From Smithella sp. (lineage in GTDB: Bacteria; Desulfobacterota; Syntrophia; Syntrophales; Smithellaceae): DNA of 54,844 bases. The notes below the pieces were generated by a model, which had not been told where the DNA came from, did no database searches, and saw only the letters and a program-made list of their open reading frames with translations. Within the stretch, counting starts at the first letter, position 1; every line of letters begins with the position of its first letter. This document shows positions 23,077-29,685 of this stretch, in pieces. The stretch is from positions 1-54,844 of the forward strand of contig JAAZHX010000154.1 in assembly GCA_012510495.1 (NCBI GenBank). Direction: 5' to 3'. The translations under genes and the position numbers were made by a program.

Positions 23077-24003
23077 GTGGGCAAACCGGATTTCTGGAAA
23101 AACAGCAAACGCTATTACGATCTGAAAAGCTACTGGCGCAACCGGTTCGGCTGCACGGTTCACAAGCTGCAGATCGACGCGGGCTTTACCTGCCCCAACC
23201 GCGACGGACGCGTGGCTATGGGCGGCTGCATTTACTGCGACGGACGGGGATCGAAGCTGCGCCAAAGCGGGGCTCTTCCTTGTGTGGCCGACCAGATTGC
23301 GTCCGGCAAAAAATATTACAAGCCGTCCGCGTCAAAATTTGTCGCTTATTTTCAGACCTTTACCAACACCTACGCTCCGGTGGAAAAACTCAAAGCGCTC
23401 TACGATGAGGCGCTGGTCCAGGAAGATGTCATCGGCCTGTCCGTCGGCACGAGGCCCGACTGCCTGCCCCCGGAGGTGATCGATCTTCTGGCCGGCTATG
23501 CGAAAAAATATCACGTCTGGGTGGAACTGGGTCTTCAGTCCGCTTTCGACCGGACGCTTGATTTTATCAACCGAGGGCACAACTTCGCGCAGTTTGCCCG
23601 GGCTGTTGAAGCGCTCGAAGGCAGAGGATTGAACCTCTGTGTTCATGTCATTCTCGGCCTGCCCGGAGAAAGCGATGAAGACGTTCGGGTCACGGCAAAA
23701 ACGCTGGCAGCCCTTCCGGTCAACGGCATCAAAATTCATTCTCTTCTGGCGCTGGATGGCACAAAGTTGGGTGAAATGTACAAACAGGGCGCCATTCCCA
23801 TGATTACCAAAGAAAAGTACGCATCCCTCGTCGTGGACATCCTGGAACTTCTGCCGTCAGAAATGGTTATCCAGCGCCTCACCGCCGACGGTTACCGGGA
23901 TATACTGCTGGCCCCCGCCTGGGCGAAAAACAAGCTGGATGTGCTCAACACCATCCACAAAGAACTCGACAAAAGAAACACCTATCAAGGGAGACGCTGT
24001 TAA
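23077..24003 (+). CDS. Radical SAM protein, TIGR01212 (YtqA/YhcC) family
   Basis: A 308-residue radical SAM enzyme. The cluster Cys residues are in CPNRDGRVAMGGCIYC, a widely spaced C-x11-C-x2-C typical of this family. Further features are ELGLQSAFDRTLDFINRGH and HVILGLPGESDEDV. The reaction is not established to my knowledge. The start is GTG at 23077, preceded by AAAGAGG. It stands alone on the plus strand and ends before a strong terminator. Confidence 0.9.
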   Translation: MGKPDFWKNSKRYYDLKSYWRNRFGCTVHKLQIDAGFTCPNRDGRVAMGGCIYCDGRGSKLRQSGALPCVADQIASGKKYYKPSASKFVAYFQTFTNTYAPVEKLKALYDEALVQEDVIGLSVGTRPDCLPPEVIDLLAGYAKKYHVWVELGLQSAFDRTLDFINRGHNFAQFARAVEALEGRGLNLCVHVILGLPGESDEDVRVTAKTLAALPVNGIKIHSLLALDGTKLGEMYKQGAIPMITKEKYASLVVDILELLPSEMVIQRLTADGYRDILLAPAWAKNKLDVLNTIHKELDKRNTYQGRRC

Positions 24004-24069
24004 CTTCTCATTCCTGAGAAGCAAACCCCCCTCGTAAAAAACCATCATGCCCGGCGGCGCGCCTCGAAG

Positions 24070-24090
24070 CATGAAAATTCTATTTTCATG
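24070..24090. repeat. Perfect 9-bp hairpin
   Basis: CATGAAAAT, a TCT loop and ATTTTCATG form a perfect stem in the 150-base gap after the radical SAM gene. The flanks also contain CATGCCCGGC and GCCGGGCATG arms, so the whole gap is a nested palindrome, possibly a mobile hairpin. Confidence 0.5.
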
Positions 24091-24123
24091 GTAAGTCTGG
24101 GAGTCAGGGGGTTAACGCGGCCG

Positions 24124-24151
24124 GGCATGACTTGCGGCTCATGCCTTTTTT
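24124..24151 (+). terminator. Rho-independent terminator
   Basis: GGCATGA, an 8-base loop and TCATGCC are followed by TTTTTT. It is placed to end the radical SAM transcript and abuts the end of the cytochrome gene on the other strand. Confidence 0.78.
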
Positions 24152-24154
24152 CGC

Positions 24155-25402
24155 CTAGCGGGCAATGGCCTTGGGCACGAAAATCAAATCTTCATTGGCT
24201 TTGGCGCCATTCTTGATCAGCGTCTCCTTGGTCAGGAAATTCTTGCGATCCACGTGACAGGTGTCGCATTTGCGGGTCCGGTCCGTCCGTTTCTTGATAT
24301 TGTGCGCGGGTGTATCCCAGTAGTTGGCTACTGCGTCGAAATGCTCCATTTTGATGCCCGCCGGAGCAAAAGTGTCGCGGACCGTGGGAATCAGCCGCAG
24401 GGTCGTCAGGACTTTTTTGTCCCGCGGAGAGCGCCCCAGAATCATGCCGGGGCTGGCCGCGGCATGGCCTCCATGGCAAGCGTTGCAGTTGCGGTAGTCA
24501 GATCCGGAGTGGCAACCGTAGCAGGACACTTTGCCCTCATGCTGACGATGGGTGACCTGCGTTTCCATTTTAGTTTCCTTGCCATTCGGGTGGCAGTTTT
24601 TGCAAGCCGGACGCTGCGGGACTTCATTTTTGGACTTGTAGGCCGTGCCGTCGCCGTGGAACTCCGCCTTTTTGTGGCAGTCCATGCACAGCATGCCCTT
24701 CTGATAATGAACATCCGGCGCGCCACCGTATTCACCCGTGTACTCCGGATAGACGCGGCCGCCGTGGCAAAACGTGCAGGTTTTGCCCTCGTCCTTTTTA
24801 ACGAATTTGTGCTTCGCGATCAGCCCAATACTGATCCCGCCGACCGGCGCGCCTTTCACGTGGCAGTCGCCGCAGGAGGCGTGGCAGCTCCGGCAGGATT
24901 TTTCAAAAACCTTCTCGTCAAATGTTTTCAACTCTGTCGCGGAGAACCGGGGCATGACGCCCGTCCGCTGACCGCTGGTGGTGTAGTGCAGTGATTTGGA
25001 GTAGTTGTCGGAAATCTTTTTGTGGCAAACCCCGCAGGAACGCAGATTGTCCGAGGGCTTCTTCAGCATTCCGAAGTGGGCTTTTTCCTTGCTGAGCTCC
25101 CCGTCGTTTCCGGCGTGGCACATGACGCAGCCCGCCTTGAAATGGGGATCTTTGTCCAGCAGGGCCTTATCGACCACATACCCTTTATACATTTCTTCCG
25201 GCCGAACTGGCGGAGGAGCACCCGCTCACCCCTCGCCCTCGCTTTTGGGCAAAACGGGCGGCTTGTGCATGGACTTCATCAACGCATCATTCGTATGGCA
25301 CTGAATGCATTTATTGGTGGTGGCGGCAAAGACCGAGAAACCGTAAAGTACTGCGATCAGCGCGGCAAGAAAAGAAAGAAGGAACTTGTGTTGGCTTTTC
25401 AC
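24155..25402 (-). pseudogene. 11-heme c-type cytochrome interrupted by in-frame TGA
   Basis: One continuous frame apart from a TGA at 25228-25226. The first part starts at GTG 25402 (AGGAGG four bases upstream) with a signal peptide (FLLSFLAALIAVLYGFSVFA) and a CIQCH heme site. The second part has ten more CxxCH motifs (CVMCH, CGVCH, CRSCH, CGDCH, CTFCH, CMDCH, CKNCH, CYGCH, CNACH, CDTCH). The stop falls in a low-complexity linker (PKSEGEG then AGAPPPVRPEEMYKG). If read through, the product would be a 415-residue periplasmic undecaheme cytochrome. If not, the second part lacks an export signal. It follows a periplasmic rhodanese gene by 80 bases. Nonsense mutation, sequencing error and readthrough are all possible. 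Confidence 0.85.
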
Positions 25403-25482
25403 GACACCTCCTGAAGGGAAGAGCGGGGCAAGATGTAACAAATCAGCTTCCCCCTGTCAAACGGATTCATCGGGGGCGTTGA

Positions 25483-26379
25483 TCAGTGCTCCACCGGCGC
25501 CTGCGGGTCCTGCATCCACTCCTGCATGGAACCGACGTAGAGCCTGACGTTTTTATACCCCAGCACCTCCGTCAAAAGATACGACCAGGTCGGGCAGCAC
25601 TGGCCCGCGTCGCAGTAAGTGACGATCGCGGCGTTGCGGTCCTTTCCCGCGGCTGCTTCGGCAATGACCGTCAATTCTTCTTTTGTTTTGAAGGTCCTGT
25701 CCTCATTGAAGGCGCAGGAGGTCGGCATATTGAACGCGCCGGGAATGTGGCCCCTCATGGGAACGCAATCCATCTTTCTCTCCCCCGTAAAAAATTCGCG
25801 TTCACGCAGGTCCAGGAGAATGAGTTTATCCAACTTTTCTTTGACATAGTTTTTATCGGCAAATTTTTCCGAGACGTATTTCCCCTTGAATTTGCTGGCC
25901 TTGCGCTTTTCAATCCGGGTGGAGAGGGGCTTTTTCTCCGCCATCCACTTGTTGGCGCCTCCGTCCAGAAGCGCGACGTTTTCAATGCCCGCATACTGCA
26001 GTGTGCAGGCGACGCGGGCGCTCTGATAGCTGAGTCGCGGCGTATCCATACAGCCGGTGATAATGACCCAGCGGTCAAAGTTGATCCCCATGTAGCCGAT
26101 TGTATCGTCAATATCGTCTTTGTCCGGCAGCGATGCGTACAGACCGTCCTTCATATAAGCCCAGGCGCCGTAAAAAGCGTTCAGCGCTCCGGGAATGTGG
26201 CCTTCGCGGTAATCTTCCACGCGGCGGATGTCCAGGACAATGATTTTGGGGTTTTTCAGATTGGCCTGGAGCCAGTCGGTGGAGACAATCGGGGCAATGT
26301 CTCTGGCCAGTCCCGCGGCCGGGAGCAAAAAGATGAATAAAGCAAAAATGAGGAGTTTGGGCAAAAGCTTTTCTTTCAT
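25483..26379 (-). CDS. Periplasmic two-domain rhodanese
   Basis: A 298-residue sulfurtransferase with a signal peptide (LLIFALFIFLLPAAGLA). Domain 1 (about 30-150) has STDWLQANLKNPKIIVLDIR and HIPGALNAFYG. Domain 2 (about 170-290) has a catalytic Cys loop TYCDAGQCCPTW. Domain 1 also has a Cys in VIITGCMDT. Rhodaneses carry sulfane sulfur as Cys persulfide. GGGAGG precedes the ATG. It is upstream of the undecaheme cytochrome, probably in one transcript, and has a paralogue at 30456-31367. A role linking sulfane sulfur to periplasmic electron transfer is inference. Confidence 0.9.
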   Translation of the reverse strand: MKEKLLPKLLIFALFIFLLPAAGLARDIAPIVSTDWLQANLKNPKIIVLDIRRVEDYREGHIPGALNAFYGAWAYMKDGLYASLPDKDDIDDTIGYMGINFDRWVIITGCMDTPRLSYQSARVACTLQYAGIENVALLDGGANKWMAEKKPLSTRIEKRKASKFKGKYVSEKFADKNYVKEKLDKLILLDLREREFFTGERKMDCVPMRGHIPGAFNMPTSCAFNEDRTFKTKEELTVIAEAAAGKDRNAAIVTYCDAGQCCPTWSYLLTEVLGYKNVRLYVGSMQEWMQDPQAPVEH

Positions 26380-26470
26380 GTGGTTACCTCCCTGTCAGCC
26401 AATGCTCACGATGATCCGTTAAAATACTTTCTTCCTGATGTCGCCGGAAGTATAGCATGCCCGTTCAAAA

Positions 26471-26715
26471 TTACCAGTTCAATATCGCCGCGCGGGTTCG
26501 CAGCCGGGTCTGTAAAACCGCTTCCGGTGACGCAATTTCCAGGCGGTCGCTACTCTCCTTCGGCCGGACGCTGCAGGCGCTGCGGTCAAGAATGTGAATC
26601 GCTGCTCCATGCCCTCCGTCGAATTCTTGTAAAGCTTCAGTCTGCCCGTAAGAACAATATAAAAAGACTTGACGAAATGCAGGTGTTTTCTTATCAAAGA
26701 CCAGTAGTGAAACAA
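26471..26715 (-). pseudogene. Remnant of a Crp/Fnr-type regulator
   Basis: The fragment SFYIVLTGRLKLYKNSTEGMEQ matches a strand pair of the cNMP-binding beta-roll of Crp/Fnr proteins. The frame then shifts: the continuation in another frame reads IHILDRSACSVRPKESSD and ends at TAA 26473-26471. No DNA-binding domain is present. It occupies most of the 360-base gap between the rhodanese gene and the small Sec-candidate gene. Confidence 0.5.
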
Positions 26716-26738
26716 AATAAATTATCAGGATGGAAAAT

Positions 26739-26882
26739 ATGAATGATTTACTGGTCTTGCTGTTGATTGTAGTTGTTTGGGTTTTTGTTCAGGCATGGCT
26801 GTTGCCGAAACTCGGCATATCCACCTGAATGCGGCCTTCCTGTCCGGCTCCGGACAAAAAAAAGAAATTGGAACCGCGGTAG
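26739..26882 (+). CDS. Candidate small membrane selenoprotein (TGA read as Sec)
   Basis: ATG at 26739 follows AGGATGG at a good distance. Codons 2-29 give a membrane helix (NDLLVLLLIVVVWVFVQAW) then LLPKLGIST. Codon 30 is TGA (26826-26828). The frame then continues MRPSCPAPDKKKKLEPR to TAG at 26880. Read with Sec, the product is 47 residues with a U30-x4-C35 redox pair just outside the membrane and a basic tail. A perfect hairpin starts 12 bases after the TGA, the spacing of bacterial SECIS elements. If TGA is a stop, the product is a 29-residue hydrophobic peptide. It lies between periplasmic rhodanese and glycerate kinase genes. Membrane thiol or selenol redox activity is inferred. Confidence 0.65.
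26841..26856 (+). promoter_or_regulatory. SECIS-like hairpin
   Basis: TGTCCG, loop GCTC and CGGACA form a perfect 6-bp stem. It starts 12 bases after the in-frame TGA; in the E. coli fdhF SECIS the SelB-binding mini-helix starts 11 bases after UGA. The loop begins with G. An A-run, not a T-run, follows on this strand, so it is not a terminator for the gene. Confidence 0.55.
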
Positions 26883-26941
26883 CGGTTCTGCCGATTGTTT
26901 CAAACGCAAGCCCCGGTCTTTTCGGAGAAAAGGGCGGGGCG

Positions 26942-28285
26942 TCATATCACGGCGAGAACCTGGATGTCGCAGACATTGGTATAGGTTGGGCCCGTCACGA
27001 AAAGACCTCCCTGATGCTGAAAGAAAGAATAGGAGTCATTATTCTGAAGGCGTAACGCAGCCTCGGCGGAAACGGCTTTCATCTTCGCCGTCAGCGCGGG
27101 TGTCACCAGAGCGCCCGCCGCGTCCGTCGGACCGTCGCTGCCGTCCGTGCCGGCGGAAAGGAAGAAGACATCCGAAGAATCCGGAAGAATCCGGTGCAGC
27201 TCCAACGTAAACGCCAGAGCCATTTCCTGATTTCTTCCGCCTTTACCCGCGCCACGGAGCGTAACGGTTGTTTCGCCGCCGGCGATCATGACGGCCGGTT
27301 TCGCCGTCGGCGATTTCCTCTCCCGCATGGCCCCGGCAAGCTGCGCGAAGTATTTTCCCGCCTCGGACGCCTCACCGGCCAGTGTCGTGCTGAGGATATG
27401 CGCGTCATATCCCATCTTTTTCGCGGCGCTTTGGGCCGCGGCGCAGGCCAGCGTATTGTTGCCCAGGATCAGATTGATATTATTACGGAAGGCCGGGTCG
27501 TTCTCTTTGGGGGTTTCGGCTGTTTCGCCCCGCGCCCCCCGGGCCAAATGCTCGATTACGGCTCGTGGAAGCCTGTCATCCAGCCCGTATCGGAAAATGA
27601 TCGAGAGCGCGTCTTCAAACGTGGTGGGATCGGGCGCGGTAATGCCCGACGCGATCGTATCGATCCGGTCGCCGATGACATCCGACAAAATCAGGTTGAT
27701 CAGCCTGGCGGGGATTGCCATCCGGGCCAGACCCCCGCCTTTGACTTTCGAGAGATGCTTCCGGATGCAGTTGACCTCGTCGATGCCGGCGCCGGACGCC
27801 AGCAGGGCTTGCGTTGTTTTTTGCTTGTGTTCCAGACTGATGCCGTCTGCGGGCAGGCAGCAAAGCGCCGACCCGCCGCCGGAAACCAAATTGATGATGA
27901 TTGAATGTTCGTCCGCGGCTCGGGCCATGCCCGCGAGGATGCGGGCGCCTTCCAGGCTGTTTTCATCCGGAATGGGGTGGCCGGCTTCCAGGACCTTTAT
28001 CTTCGGGAGGTTCAGGCCATGGCCGTATTTTGTGATGACGAATCCGCTTGCAAGTTCGTCCTCCAGCAGACTTCCCATGGCAAAGGCCATGCGCGCCGAG
28101 GCTTTGCCGATGCCGAGCGCCATCACCTGCCGGTAGCGGGAAATATCTTCCGTCCAGTCCGCTCCCTGGCCCCGCAGCACAAGCTTGCTGCCTTCTTTCC
28201 GGACGCGGGATGCAATCAGACCGGCAGGGTCCACCTCCCGAACGGCGGCGCGGTAAATATTTTCCAGGTCACAGGCAGGGTCCAT
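26942..28285 (-). CDS. Glycerate 2-kinase (MOFRL family)
   Basis: A 447-residue enzyme of the GckA/TtuD family that phosphorylates D-glycerate to 2-phosphoglycerate. It has the N-terminal DUF4147 part (ALGIGKASARMAFAMG, NLVSGGGSALCCLP) and the C-terminal MOFRL part (GGETTVTLRGAGKGGRNQEM, FLSAGTDGSDGPTDAAGA). The ATG at 28285 (MDPACDLENIYRAAV) is preferred because GGAG lies six bases upstream. The in-frame ATG at 28342 lacks a site and would overlap the divergent promoter. It feeds glycerate into glycolysis. Confidence 0.91.
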   Translation of the reverse strand: MDPACDLENIYRAAVREVDPAGLIASRVRKEGSKLVLRGQGADWTEDISRYRQVMALGIGKASARMAFAMGSLLEDELASGFVITKYGHGLNLPKIKVLEAGHPIPDENSLEGARILAGMARAADEHSIIINLVSGGGSALCCLPADGISLEHKQKTTQALLASGAGIDEVNCIRKHLSKVKGGGLARMAIPARLINLILSDVIGDRIDTIASGITAPDPTTFEDALSIIFRYGLDDRLPRAVIEHLARGARGETAETPKENDPAFRNNINLILGNNTLACAAAQSAAKKMGYDAHILSTTLAGEASEAGKYFAQLAGAMRERKSPTAKPAVMIAGGETTVTLRGAGKGGRNQEMALAFTLELHRILPDSSDVFFLSAGTDGSDGPTDAAGALVTPALTAKMKAVSAEAALRLQNNDSYSFFQHQGGLFVTGPTYTNVCDIQVLAVI

Positions 28286-28358
28286 GGTTTTCTCCACGAG
28301 ATATTTCCCCACAGCTATCATGAAGGGGGCTTCGGTTGTCAAGCGTTGATTTTACGAC

Positions 28359-28387
28359 TTGACAGGGGCAAGAGAAATGTTTATATA
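28359..28387 (+). promoter_or_regulatory. Consensus promoter of the cstR-like operon
   Basis: TTGACA (28359-28364), exactly 17 bases, then TATATA (28382-28387). The downstream operator begins at the last base of the -10 element. Confidence 0.75.
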
Positions 28388-28403
28388 TACCCCCACGGGG
28401 TAT
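28387..28403. promoter_or_regulatory. CsoR/CstR-type operator
   Basis: ATACCCC-CAC-GGGGTAT is a perfect 7-3-7 inverted repeat of the type bound by CsoR, RcnR and CstR tetramers. It overlaps the -10 box, and its GGGG doubles as the ribosome site for the ATG at 28407. Autorepression is therefore expected. Confidence 0.8.
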
Positions 28404-28406
28404 GTT

Positions 28407-28670
28407 ATGGATGAAACGAGATCCAAGGTATTAAACCGATTAAAGCGAATCGAAGGGCAAATCCGCGGGCTGGGGCGAATGGTTGAGCAGGAAGCGCCCT
28501 GCGCCGATGTCCTGACCCAGCTCTACGCGGCCACAGCCGCCATGAAGAAAACCGGCGTCGTGATCATTCAGGCCAACATGAGGCGCTGTATCGAGGAAGC
28601 GGCGGATGACCCGGATAAAAGCATCGAAGAATTTCAGAAAGCGCTGACGCGTTTCATCGGCATGTCTTAG
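28407..28670 (+). CDS. cstR: CstR-like persulfide-sensing repressor (CsoR family)
   Basis: An 87-residue all-helical DUF156 repressor (MDETRSKVLNRLKRIEGQIRG start). Sensing residues are C32 and C61. The copper-sensor His that lies four residues before the second Cys in CsoR is Asn here (N57 in QANMRRC), as in the staphylococcal persulfide sensor CstR, which uses only two Cys. The segment after the Cys (IEEAADDPDKS) also resembles CstR. The operator overlaps its own promoter. Downstream are an FeS protein, a cytochrome b and a rhodanese, fitting sulfane-sulfur control. A formaldehyde or metal sensor is less likely. Confidence 0.82.
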   Translation: MDETRSKVLNRLKRIEGQIRGLGRMVEQEAPCADVLTQLYAATAAMKKTGVVIIQANMRRCIEEAADDPDKSIEEFQKALTRFIGMS

Positions 28671-28680
28671 GAGAAAACGA

Positions 28681-29685
28681 ATGAATTCCAAAAATACGCC
28701 GGAAATATCCCGCCGTTCCTTTTTGCGGATCTCGGCCGGGGCCGCGGCCCTGACGGGAATCCATCTCCCAAAGGCCGTCCGGGCCGAATCGGCCGGTGCC
28801 CTTGCAACGCTCATCGATTTGAGCCTTTGCGACGGGTGCACGGACCGCAACATGCCCGCCTGCGTCCAGGCCTGCCGAAGCATCAACGCCAACAAAATTT
28901 CCCCCGTCGCGGAGCGCATTCCAGAGCCTTGGCCGAGAAAAACCATTGAAGACTGGTCCAAAAAGCAGGACGTCACGAACCGTCTGACTCCTTACAACTA
29001 TCTTTTCGTGCACCGGGCGGAAATCACCGTGAACGGCGAGCGGCAAACCCTGTTTGTCCCGAGGCGCTGCATGCACTGCGACAACCCTGCCTGCGCGACC
29101 ATCTGTCCGTTTTCCGCCAACCATAAAAATAAGAACGGCGCGGTGGTCATCGACCCAGACCAGTGTTTCGGCGGCGCCAAATGCCGGGACGTCTGCCCGT
29201 GGGAAATTCCGCAGCGGCAGTCCGGCGTCGGCATTTACCTCCATATCCTGCCCGATTTCATGGGCAACGGTGTCATGTACAAATGCGACCTCTGCAATGA
29301 CAGGCTAAAGGAAGGAAAAATGCCGGGATGCATCGAGGTCTGCCCGCGCAATGCCATGCTGATCGGCCCCAGAAAAGAGATAGAAGCTGAGGCGCAGGCC
29401 CGTGCCGGCAAGATCAATGGACACATTTACGGTCAGAAAGAAAACGGCGGCACGGCCACGCTCTATGTGTCGCCCGTATCGTTCGAGCTGTTGAACCAAA
29501 CCATGACCGGAAAACCCGGGCAGCCGGCCATGAAGCCGGGTGTCGAGCGGCGCATGGCGGGAACGGACCCGCTGGGAAAAGCCGTGCTGGCTTCCCCCGT
29601 TCTGGGATTGGCGCTCGCCGGTGCGGCCGGCTGGTTTTCACGCCGCGGGGACCGCAAGGCCTGCCAGGAGGAAGACCATGACTGA
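28681..29685 (+). CDS. Tat-exported 4Fe-4S electron-transfer protein
   Basis: A 334-residue ferredoxin-like subunit. The twin-arginine signal (SRRSFLRISAGAAAL) directs export of the folded protein. Four Cys clusters follow (CDGC...CVQAC; CMHC...CATIC; CFGGAKCRDVC; CDLC...CIEVC), enough for four 4Fe-4S clusters. A C-terminal helix (KAVLASPVLGLALAGAAGWFS) anchors it to the membrane, as in HybA and FdnH. It is 10 bases after the repressor gene and overlaps the cytochrome b gene by 8 bases. No molybdopterin or hydrogenase catalytic subunit is adjacent, so it probably passes electrons between quinones and another periplasmic partner. Confidence 0.9.
   Translation: MNSKNTPEISRRSFLRISAGAAALTGIHLPKAVRAESAGALATLIDLSLCDGCTDRNMPACVQACRSINANKISPVAERIPEPWPRKTIEDWSKKQDVTNRLTPYNYLFVHRAEITVNGERQTLFVPRRCMHCDNPACATICPFSANHKNKNGAVVIDPDQCFGGAKCRDVCPWEIPQRQSGVGIYLHILPDFMGNGVMYKCDLCNDRLKEGKMPGCIEVCPRNAMLIGPRKEIEAEAQARAGKINGHIYGQKENGGTATLYVSPVSFELLNQTMTGKPGQPAMKPGVERRMAGTDPLGKAVLASPVLGLALAGAAGWFSRRGDRKACQEEDHD

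Follow-up and report, generated by a model that had tools for sequence, protein, structure and literature searches.

A UGA codon almost certainly read as selenocysteine in a 47-residue membrane peptide of Smithella sp.

Introduction

SELENOS and SELENOK are small membrane proteins that contain selenocysteine (Sec), and they are compared here with a bacterial peptide by architecture alone; the Sec of SELENOS lies near its C-terminus. The available part of PMC10298544 presents SELENOS as an intrinsically disordered membrane enzyme that is a disulfide reductase and peroxidase in vitro and that traps an internal selenenylsulfide. Among prokaryotes, 119 selenoprotein families or subfamilies are given in Table 1 of PMC13188914 (2026), as far as that source was accessible, including TsoB (NF045694), with a U-x4-U motif, and TsoA (NF045695), with LULAxC. 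The same text models the bacterial SECIS element (bSECIS) as a stem of 4-16 bp with a loop of 3-9 nt that has a G in its first two positions, lies 16-37 nt from the UGA and has an MFE ≤ -7.5. According to the accessible portion of PMC12013277, every selenoprotein now known seems to have cysteine homologues, and selenoproteins without such homologues may be missed by its method. Other read-through candidates from Geobacter are given in the part of PMC1914089 that was available.

The window analysed here is the whole 54,844-nt stretch of a contig from Smithella sp. (JAAZHX010000154.1). A reading made from its sequence alone had proposed that the forward strand encodes, at 26739-26882, a small selenoprotein with one membrane helix and a U-x4-C motif, which acts with periplasmic rhodaneses and cytochromes encoded nearby. 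The small membrane selenoprotein, its hairpin and the Sec machinery withstood the analysis described below; the periplasmic partnership found no support in it. The gene shares with the catalogued families (PMC13188914, available part) an in-frame UGA, a bSECIS-like hairpin, a Sec with a nearby Cys and a likely redox role. Unlike SELENOS and SELENOK it has a bacterial SECIS inside the coding region, and its Sec follows the helix by a few residues, whereas that of SELENOK is near the C-terminus (PMC10298544, available part). SELENOS is the nearest working analogue, through a likeness of function and not through membership of one family.

The gene and its predicted product

Direct reading of the forward strand confirmed the coordinates and the reading frame of the small selenoprotein gene (26739-26882), for which homologues were found. 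An AGGATGG stretch that resembles a ribosome-binding site (26727-26733) lies 5 nt 5' of the ATG at 26739, and the ATG opens a frame of 29 residues that is followed by TGA at 26826-26828, MRPSCPAPDKKKKLEPR and TAG at 26880-26882. With the TGA translated as U, the product has 47 residues, MNDLLVLLLIVVVWVFVQAWLLPKLGISTUMRPSCPAPDKKKKLEPR. Residue 30 is the predicted Sec; the segment after it begins with MRPSC, in which the Cys35 codon (U+5) occupies 26841-26843, and ends in a basic tail. The AlphaFold2 model of this peptide (mean pLDDT 70.8, pTM 0.40; block means of 88 for residues 1-10 and 85 for residues 11-20) has a single helix at residues 3-24 (26745-26810), where the composition is hydrophobic, and then a low-confidence coil. 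It consists of helix and tail only, with no thioredoxin fold.

When 68 members of the family were searched against NCBIfam 20.0 and Pfam, no model was matched beyond noise; the best matches, to the F0F1 ATP synthase B' (E = 0.0045) and a mycobacterial arabinan synthesis protein (E = 0.0035), are read as hydrophobic-helix noise. The motifs of TsoA and TsoB are superficially like the U-x4-C of the selenopeptide, yet neither family was among the four NCBIfam models matched by the 68 members at E 0.1, their presence in the library being assumed. As far as it was available, the 119-family table of PMC13188914 has no entry that combines a TU[ML]x3C motif with a single helix in a protein of 47 residues, and a literature search returned no description of the family, of which an earlier mention may still exist. 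This is a widespread bacterial selenoprotein family that is absent from the catalogues checked and for which no Cys version was found.

The downstream hairpin

The SECIS-like hairpin noted in the sequence-only reading was recovered at 26841-26856 (TGTCCG-GCTC-CGGACA). Its perfect 6-bp stem starts 12 nt after the TGA, at the Cys35 codon, which is its first codon, and its apical loop GCTC (26847-26850) lies 18 nt after the TGA. These values, together with a free energy of -8.8 kcal/mol, fall within the ranges of the bSECIS model in the available text of PMC13188914. As a single-sequence fold the hairpin is not exceptional (z = -0.89, with 37 of 200 shuffles equally good); it is conservation and covariation across the family that place it beyond chance.

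Covariation was scored in 33 members that share one register, namely 31 of the 39 printed sequences (the eight others, in another register, being excluded) and those of G063 and G069. A 7-bp stem was formed in 93.9% of cells compared with 33.8-45.9% when the partners were slid, a figure that leans towards structure because the members were picked by register. Compensatory changes in the stem do not follow from that choice, and one inherited change counts many times. Four of the seven stem pairs had changed on both sides, the covariation score was reached by none of 500 shuffles, and at the second pair the compensatory changes gave CG in 18 and UA in 13 members. The count of further pair types, a weak measure of covariation, was reached by 35 of the 500 shuffles.

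The real RNAs were also more stable than synonymous recodings of the same peptides (mean z = -1.34, n = 125), with a Wilcoxon p of 3e-19 that is too small because the members are related. The loop of the best hairpin started 16-23 nt after the TGA (10th-90th percentile), and a G stood in the first two positions of the apical loop in 120 of 127 members, a count that has no chance control; both values fit the bSECIS model (PMC13188914, available part). A search of Rfam with positions 26700-26960 gave three chance-level matches (best E = 1.5) and no SECIS family. An automatic stem finder, run at a strict threshold on mixed sets, returned no stem because the stem registers differ among members.

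Extent of the family

When 99 genomes, its own included, were searched by tblastn with the read-through peptide, 47 of them gave a total of 48 matches at E<1e-5, and every match spans a single TGA. A 29-row profile found the family in 174 of the 395 phylum genomes sampled (E≤0.01), and a 68-row profile found it in 80 of 155 from the order and, in three further groups, in 38 of 149, 16 of 39 and 15 of 149. These groups are the phyla of G491, G492 and G481, whose central records bear the titles Terriglobia, Candidatus Puniceispirillum (a doubtful label) and Pirellulales. On these counts the selenopeptide may be one of the more common selenoproteins of bacteria. A plasmid collection held no match to a Geobacter member.

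Named genomes were scanned with a pattern that contains the TGA, Pro, Gly and Thr and leaves the residue at +5 free. At least 80 loci were listed out of 118 stretches, and 75 are members; the other five (L101, L106, L164, L172 and L175) were dropped for an upstream frame without a helix, L164 having a Cys at +5 by chance and L175 being a decayed copy in a Smithella MAG. The record titles, as deposited, include Deltaproteobacteria or Desulfobacterota (among them Geobacter, Geomobilimonas luticola, Pelotalea chapellei and Thermodesulfatator), Acidobacteria, Planctomycetes (including Kuenenia), Cyanobacteria (two MAGs), Eisenbacteria, KSB1, Spirochaetes, Armatimonadota and Verrucomicrobia. This breadth was unforeseen in the sequence-only reading. 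Close kinship was considered as the cause of the conservation described below and was rejected, since the titles span many phyla.

In total 166 members were collected: 52 from tblastn, 75 from the pattern scan, 19 from the searches of the 38/149 group and the order, and 20 from the 16/39 and 15/149 groups. The 52 were kept out of 55 tblastn rows read (48 with E<1e-5 and four with E from 4e-4 to 0.05), L095, L097 and L099 being dropped as partial, decayed or unrelated.

Conservation around the TGA

TGA stands at the Sec codon (26826-26828 in the window) in all 166 members. The pattern itself selected 75 of these for TGA; the other 91 were found without requiring it, in protein and profile searches that had Cys at the Sec column, which favours Cys forms, and whose models include the Cys at +5. 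Pro at -7 and Gly at -4 occur in 166 members, Trp or Tyr at -16 in 165 and Thr at -1 in 162; Pro, Gly, Thr and TGA are invariant in the 75 pattern loci because they were built into the pattern. Cys at U+5 is present in 150 members and is missing or shifted in 16. It occurs in 68 of the 75 pattern loci, which were chosen without asking for it. Residue U+1 is M, L, V or I in 124 of 127 members. The conserved segment can be written P-x2-G-x2-T-Sec-[M/L]-x3-Cys; the tail beyond it is poorly conserved, and 28-32 residues precede the Sec in 68 of the 75 named loci, with the start codon picked by rule.

Over U+1 to U+10, 58 independent close pairs showed 306 changed codons, of which 103 were synonymous compared with 23% expected (p = 3e-5, the expectation being that for single changes), which suggests that constraint over this stretch as a whole is real but modest. 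A random pattern of substitution after the TGA had been named in the sequence-only reading as evidence that would tell against it; what was found there is a conserved Cys.

That reading had also looked to homologues with either Cys or TGA at codon 30. Homologues with TGA proved abundant, and the lack of Cys forms was not foreseen. Among the matches listed, tblastn and profile searches of the four genome groups sampled found no Cys form. Each match listed for the 29-row profile, down to E ~5e-10, contains at least one TGA, as do all 16 and all 15 listed matches in the groups of 39 and 149 genomes searched with the 68-row profile (the 16/39 and 15/149 groups). Matches without a TGA, seen in the 38/149 group and in the order search, end before the Sec codon or fall in a decayed copy (G041:C15), and in the four that were read in the DNA (G560, G603, G612 and G658) TGA is the next codon. 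Long open frames in G560, G603 and G612 had hinted at fusions; these were rejected, since on reading the frames proved to be open upstream and to meet TGA at the Sec codon. Of eleven additional weak matches taken from tblastn and the order search and read in the DNA, ten were due to chance and one was a divergent TGA member; none was a Cys form. Whereas known selenoproteins seem to have Cys homologues (PMC12013277, available part), none was seen for this family, which therefore falls in the blind spot of that method.

Selenocysteine machinery

The two components whose absence would have told against the sequence-only reading were both found in the genome: a tRNA-Sec (77.2 bits) and SelB (358 bits). 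In the phylum sample SelB was present in 166 of 174 family-positive genomes compared with 187 of 221 negative genomes (Fisher p = 4.7e-4, kinship ignored). Eight positive genomes had no SelB match; in the seven tested (all except G419), tRNA-Sec was over the cut-off. In the 38/149 group, counted by eye and with kinship ignored, SelB was present in 34 of 38 positives compared with 70 of 111 negatives (p = 0.002), one of the positives, G599, being a weak match. Among the genomes of the 75 named loci, tRNA-Sec was over the cut-off in 26 of the 27 tested, the Verrucomicrobia MAG of L152 being the sole exception.

Were the TGA a true stop, the gene would encode a 29-residue membrane peptide, and the conservation downstream would be accidental or would belong to another signal. 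A gene caller would end the gene there, the hairpin of the window is weak as a single sequence, and little of the tail beyond the Cys is conserved, all of which would suit a stop. Against it stand the Cys at U+5 in pattern loci selected without Cys, the narrow choice of residues at U+1, a stem that covaries at fixed spacing, the absence of TAA and TAG from the Sec codon of the 166 members read, and the association with SelB, significant in both samples with kinship ignored. A stop at this codon was rejected on the Cys, U+1, covariation and SelB evidence and is regarded as extremely improbable. The in-frame UGA of the 47-residue peptide is almost certainly read as selenocysteine. On the comparative evidence it is very hard to doubt that codon 30 would be decoded by SelB and tRNA-Sec with the downstream hairpin. 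The product would be a single-helix inner-membrane selenoprotein; the proposed combination of one membrane helix with U-x4-C is supported.

Genomic neighbourhood

Six-frame searches of the 166 loci found 48 thioredoxin-like matches in the 315 kb within 1 kb of the gene, all on its strand (0.152 per kb), 15 in the 533 kb that lie 1-3 kb away and 2 in the 756 kb that lie 3-9 kb away (0.0026 per kb); the profile was seeded from these same neighbours, and related loci were counted separately. Only 48 of the 166 loci have a thioredoxin within 3 kb. It is directly adjacent in 38, of which 23 come from one family of related genomes: in the order-level set these are 23 of 52 loci, all in the family of the window and with the thioredoxin upstream. 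Elsewhere an adjacent thioredoxin was found at 6 of the 75 named loci and, downstream, at 4 of 19 and 5 of 20 loci in other groups; in three other groups the adjacent gene lies downstream of the selenopeptide gene. Most adjacent partners (the 23 of one family and the 4 and 5 of two other groups) are short WCGPC thioredoxins, and those read have no signal sequence.

Thioredoxin (PF00085) was the commonest family in the immediate same-strand upstream position (27 of 130 scanned ORFs, among the best 25 of 89 families listed). Downstream, methyltransferase domains (11 of 129) outnumbered thioredoxin (6 of 129) among the best 25 of 88 families listed. Other neighbours were a YgaP-like membrane domain (5 of 129), rhodanese and C_GCAxxG_C_C (5 of 130 each) and zinc ribbons (4 of 130). 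Thioredoxin is thus a frequent genomic partner of a peptide that itself has no thioredoxin fold, and at one locus, in a Pirellulales MAG (L113:1145-1660, forward strand), the selenopeptide frame runs stop-free into a WCGPC thioredoxin. This in-frame join, the only one in 166 loci, is possibly a fused Sec-thioredoxin membrane protein; the thioredoxin keeps its own ATG there.

A CxxC zinc-ribbon ORF, read as FmdB type, was observed beside the selenopeptide and thioredoxin genes in unrelated genomes (L233, L236, L238, L103 and L157), an arrangement that suggests a three-gene module.

No thioredoxin was found at the locus in the window (24001-29000) or in the sister genome G012, so a partner gene need not adjoin the selenopeptide gene. 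The gene lies in an island (26735-26940) with 84% DNA identity to G012, between stretches that do not align. On the reverse strand, 26587-26712 holds what is left of a gene that we take for a Crp/Fnr-like regulator (best tblastn E = 2e-8; a cluster of 26 loci); in related loci the intact gene, so named by reading, is divergent and about 1 kb upstream, often with a thioredoxin between. Upstream in the window are a rhodanese-like and a cytochrome-like ORF, and a related rhodanese-like neighbour occurs in G012 and G026. Proteins read as TlpA-like adjoin the gene in L156, L173 and L180 and are convergent within 2.5 kb in L116, L122 and L126.

Topology of the Sec site

The four residues after the helix contain 0.24 Lys/Arg and 0 Asp/Glu per residue, and the four N-terminal residues contain 0.067 Lys/Arg and 0.22 Asp/Glu. 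Over these equal stretches Lys/Arg was higher after the helix in 114 of 164 members and lower in 1, with 49 ties. The net charge of the whole tail exceeded that of the N-terminus in 133 members, was lower in 17 and equal in 14, and the charge rule is not uniform across the family. Under the positive-inside rule this distribution points to a cytoplasmic Sec site but does not prove it. The Sec site is more likely to face the cytoplasm, because of this charge bias and because thioredoxin is the neighbour that recurs across groups; this orientation is the one favoured here.

A Sec site on the other face would work with the rhodaneses and multihaem cytochromes encoded nearby, as the sequence-only reading had supposed, or with TlpA-like thioredoxins. 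The ORFs upstream in the window, the rhodanese-like neighbours in G012 and G026 and the TlpA-like genes at six loci would agree with this, and the adjacent thioredoxin-like proteins of L156, L173 and L180 have a hydrophobic or signal-like start, which would suit the periplasm and would not fit a cytoplasmic partner. Against a periplasmic site stand the charge bias, the fact that the rhodanese beside the gene in the window falls in a cluster found at only 6 of 127 loci (as adjacent same-strand upstream gene, rhodanese accounts for 5 of 130), and the short WCGPC thioredoxins, which make up most adjacent partners and have no signal sequence in those read. The partnership with periplasmic rhodaneses and cytochromes was not borne out, and a periplasmic site is considered very unlikely. 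A metal or metalloid ligand or sensor, in place of a thioredoxin-coupled redox catalyst, would explain neighbours read as ArsR-type regulators (L103, L127 and L167) and a metal permease (L133), as well as the C_GCAxxG_C_C and zinc-ribbon neighbours. The downstream tally, in which methyltransferase domains lead, tempers the case for thioredoxin; among the upstream families listed none is as frequent as thioredoxin, and we regard a metal-binding role as quite unlikely. The peptide might instead be a small structural or regulatory subunit that binds a larger protein of the membrane and uses its Sec for attachment or signalling. Its tiny size, one helix and low-confidence tail would suit such a role, the W/Y, P and G residues conserved within the helix and beyond it could form a docking surface, and SELENOK is described as an acyltransferase cofactor (PMC10298544, available part). 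Among the neighbour families listed, no larger membrane protein often recurs beside the gene, and a subunit role is held to be unlikely.

Proposed role

The evidence supports translation through the UGA as Sec in a peptide with a predicted membrane helix and a Cys five residues on. In the reading that we prefer, UGA 30 would be decoded as Sec by SelB and tRNA-Sec with the hairpin just 3' of it, and the segment P-x2-G-x2-T-Sec-[M/L]-x3-Cys would leave the membrane on the cytoplasmic side, as charge and the thioredoxin neighbours suggest. There Sec30 and Cys35 may form a reversible selenenylsulfide. The Sec would react at the membrane surface with an oxidant or with a disulfide, polysulfide or quinone-like acceptor, and thioredoxin would then reduce the Se-S bond between Sec30 and Cys35 again, a link that we consider fairly probable. 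On this view the selenopeptide would act in Sec-using bacteria as a membrane peroxidase or reductase that thioredoxin serves. Taken as a whole, the proposal of a cytoplasmic-side Sec30/Cys35 peptide that is served by thioredoxin in such a role appears somewhat better than an even chance. Whether the peptide is also ancient, phylum-crossing and Sec-obligate, a standing inner-membrane redox partner of thioredoxin with no Cys version, is evenly balanced. If true, it would add a new membrane branch to the thioredoxin system, mostly in anaerobes, a lifestyle judged from the record titles.

The family would have been overlooked because its members are shorter than 60 residues, gene calls stop at the UGA and discovery methods require Cys homologues; it brings to light a blind spot of both gene calling and selenoprotein discovery.

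Duplicated and divergent members

The dropped row L097, identical to L175, represents a second selenopeptide gene, now broken, in the Smithella MAG G041, where an intact copy (L086) lies elsewhere. Two or three family matches per genome were seen in G016, G684, G685, G691, G693 and G695, and paralogues seem to occur in some genomes. Divergent members of the same order were also observed (L094, L096, L100 and L222; L098 and L269), in some of which the Cys at U+5 is missing or shifted. Two of them carry a RIPRRGGPGU motif followed by TSQSC, and the divergent members are possibly subfamilies.
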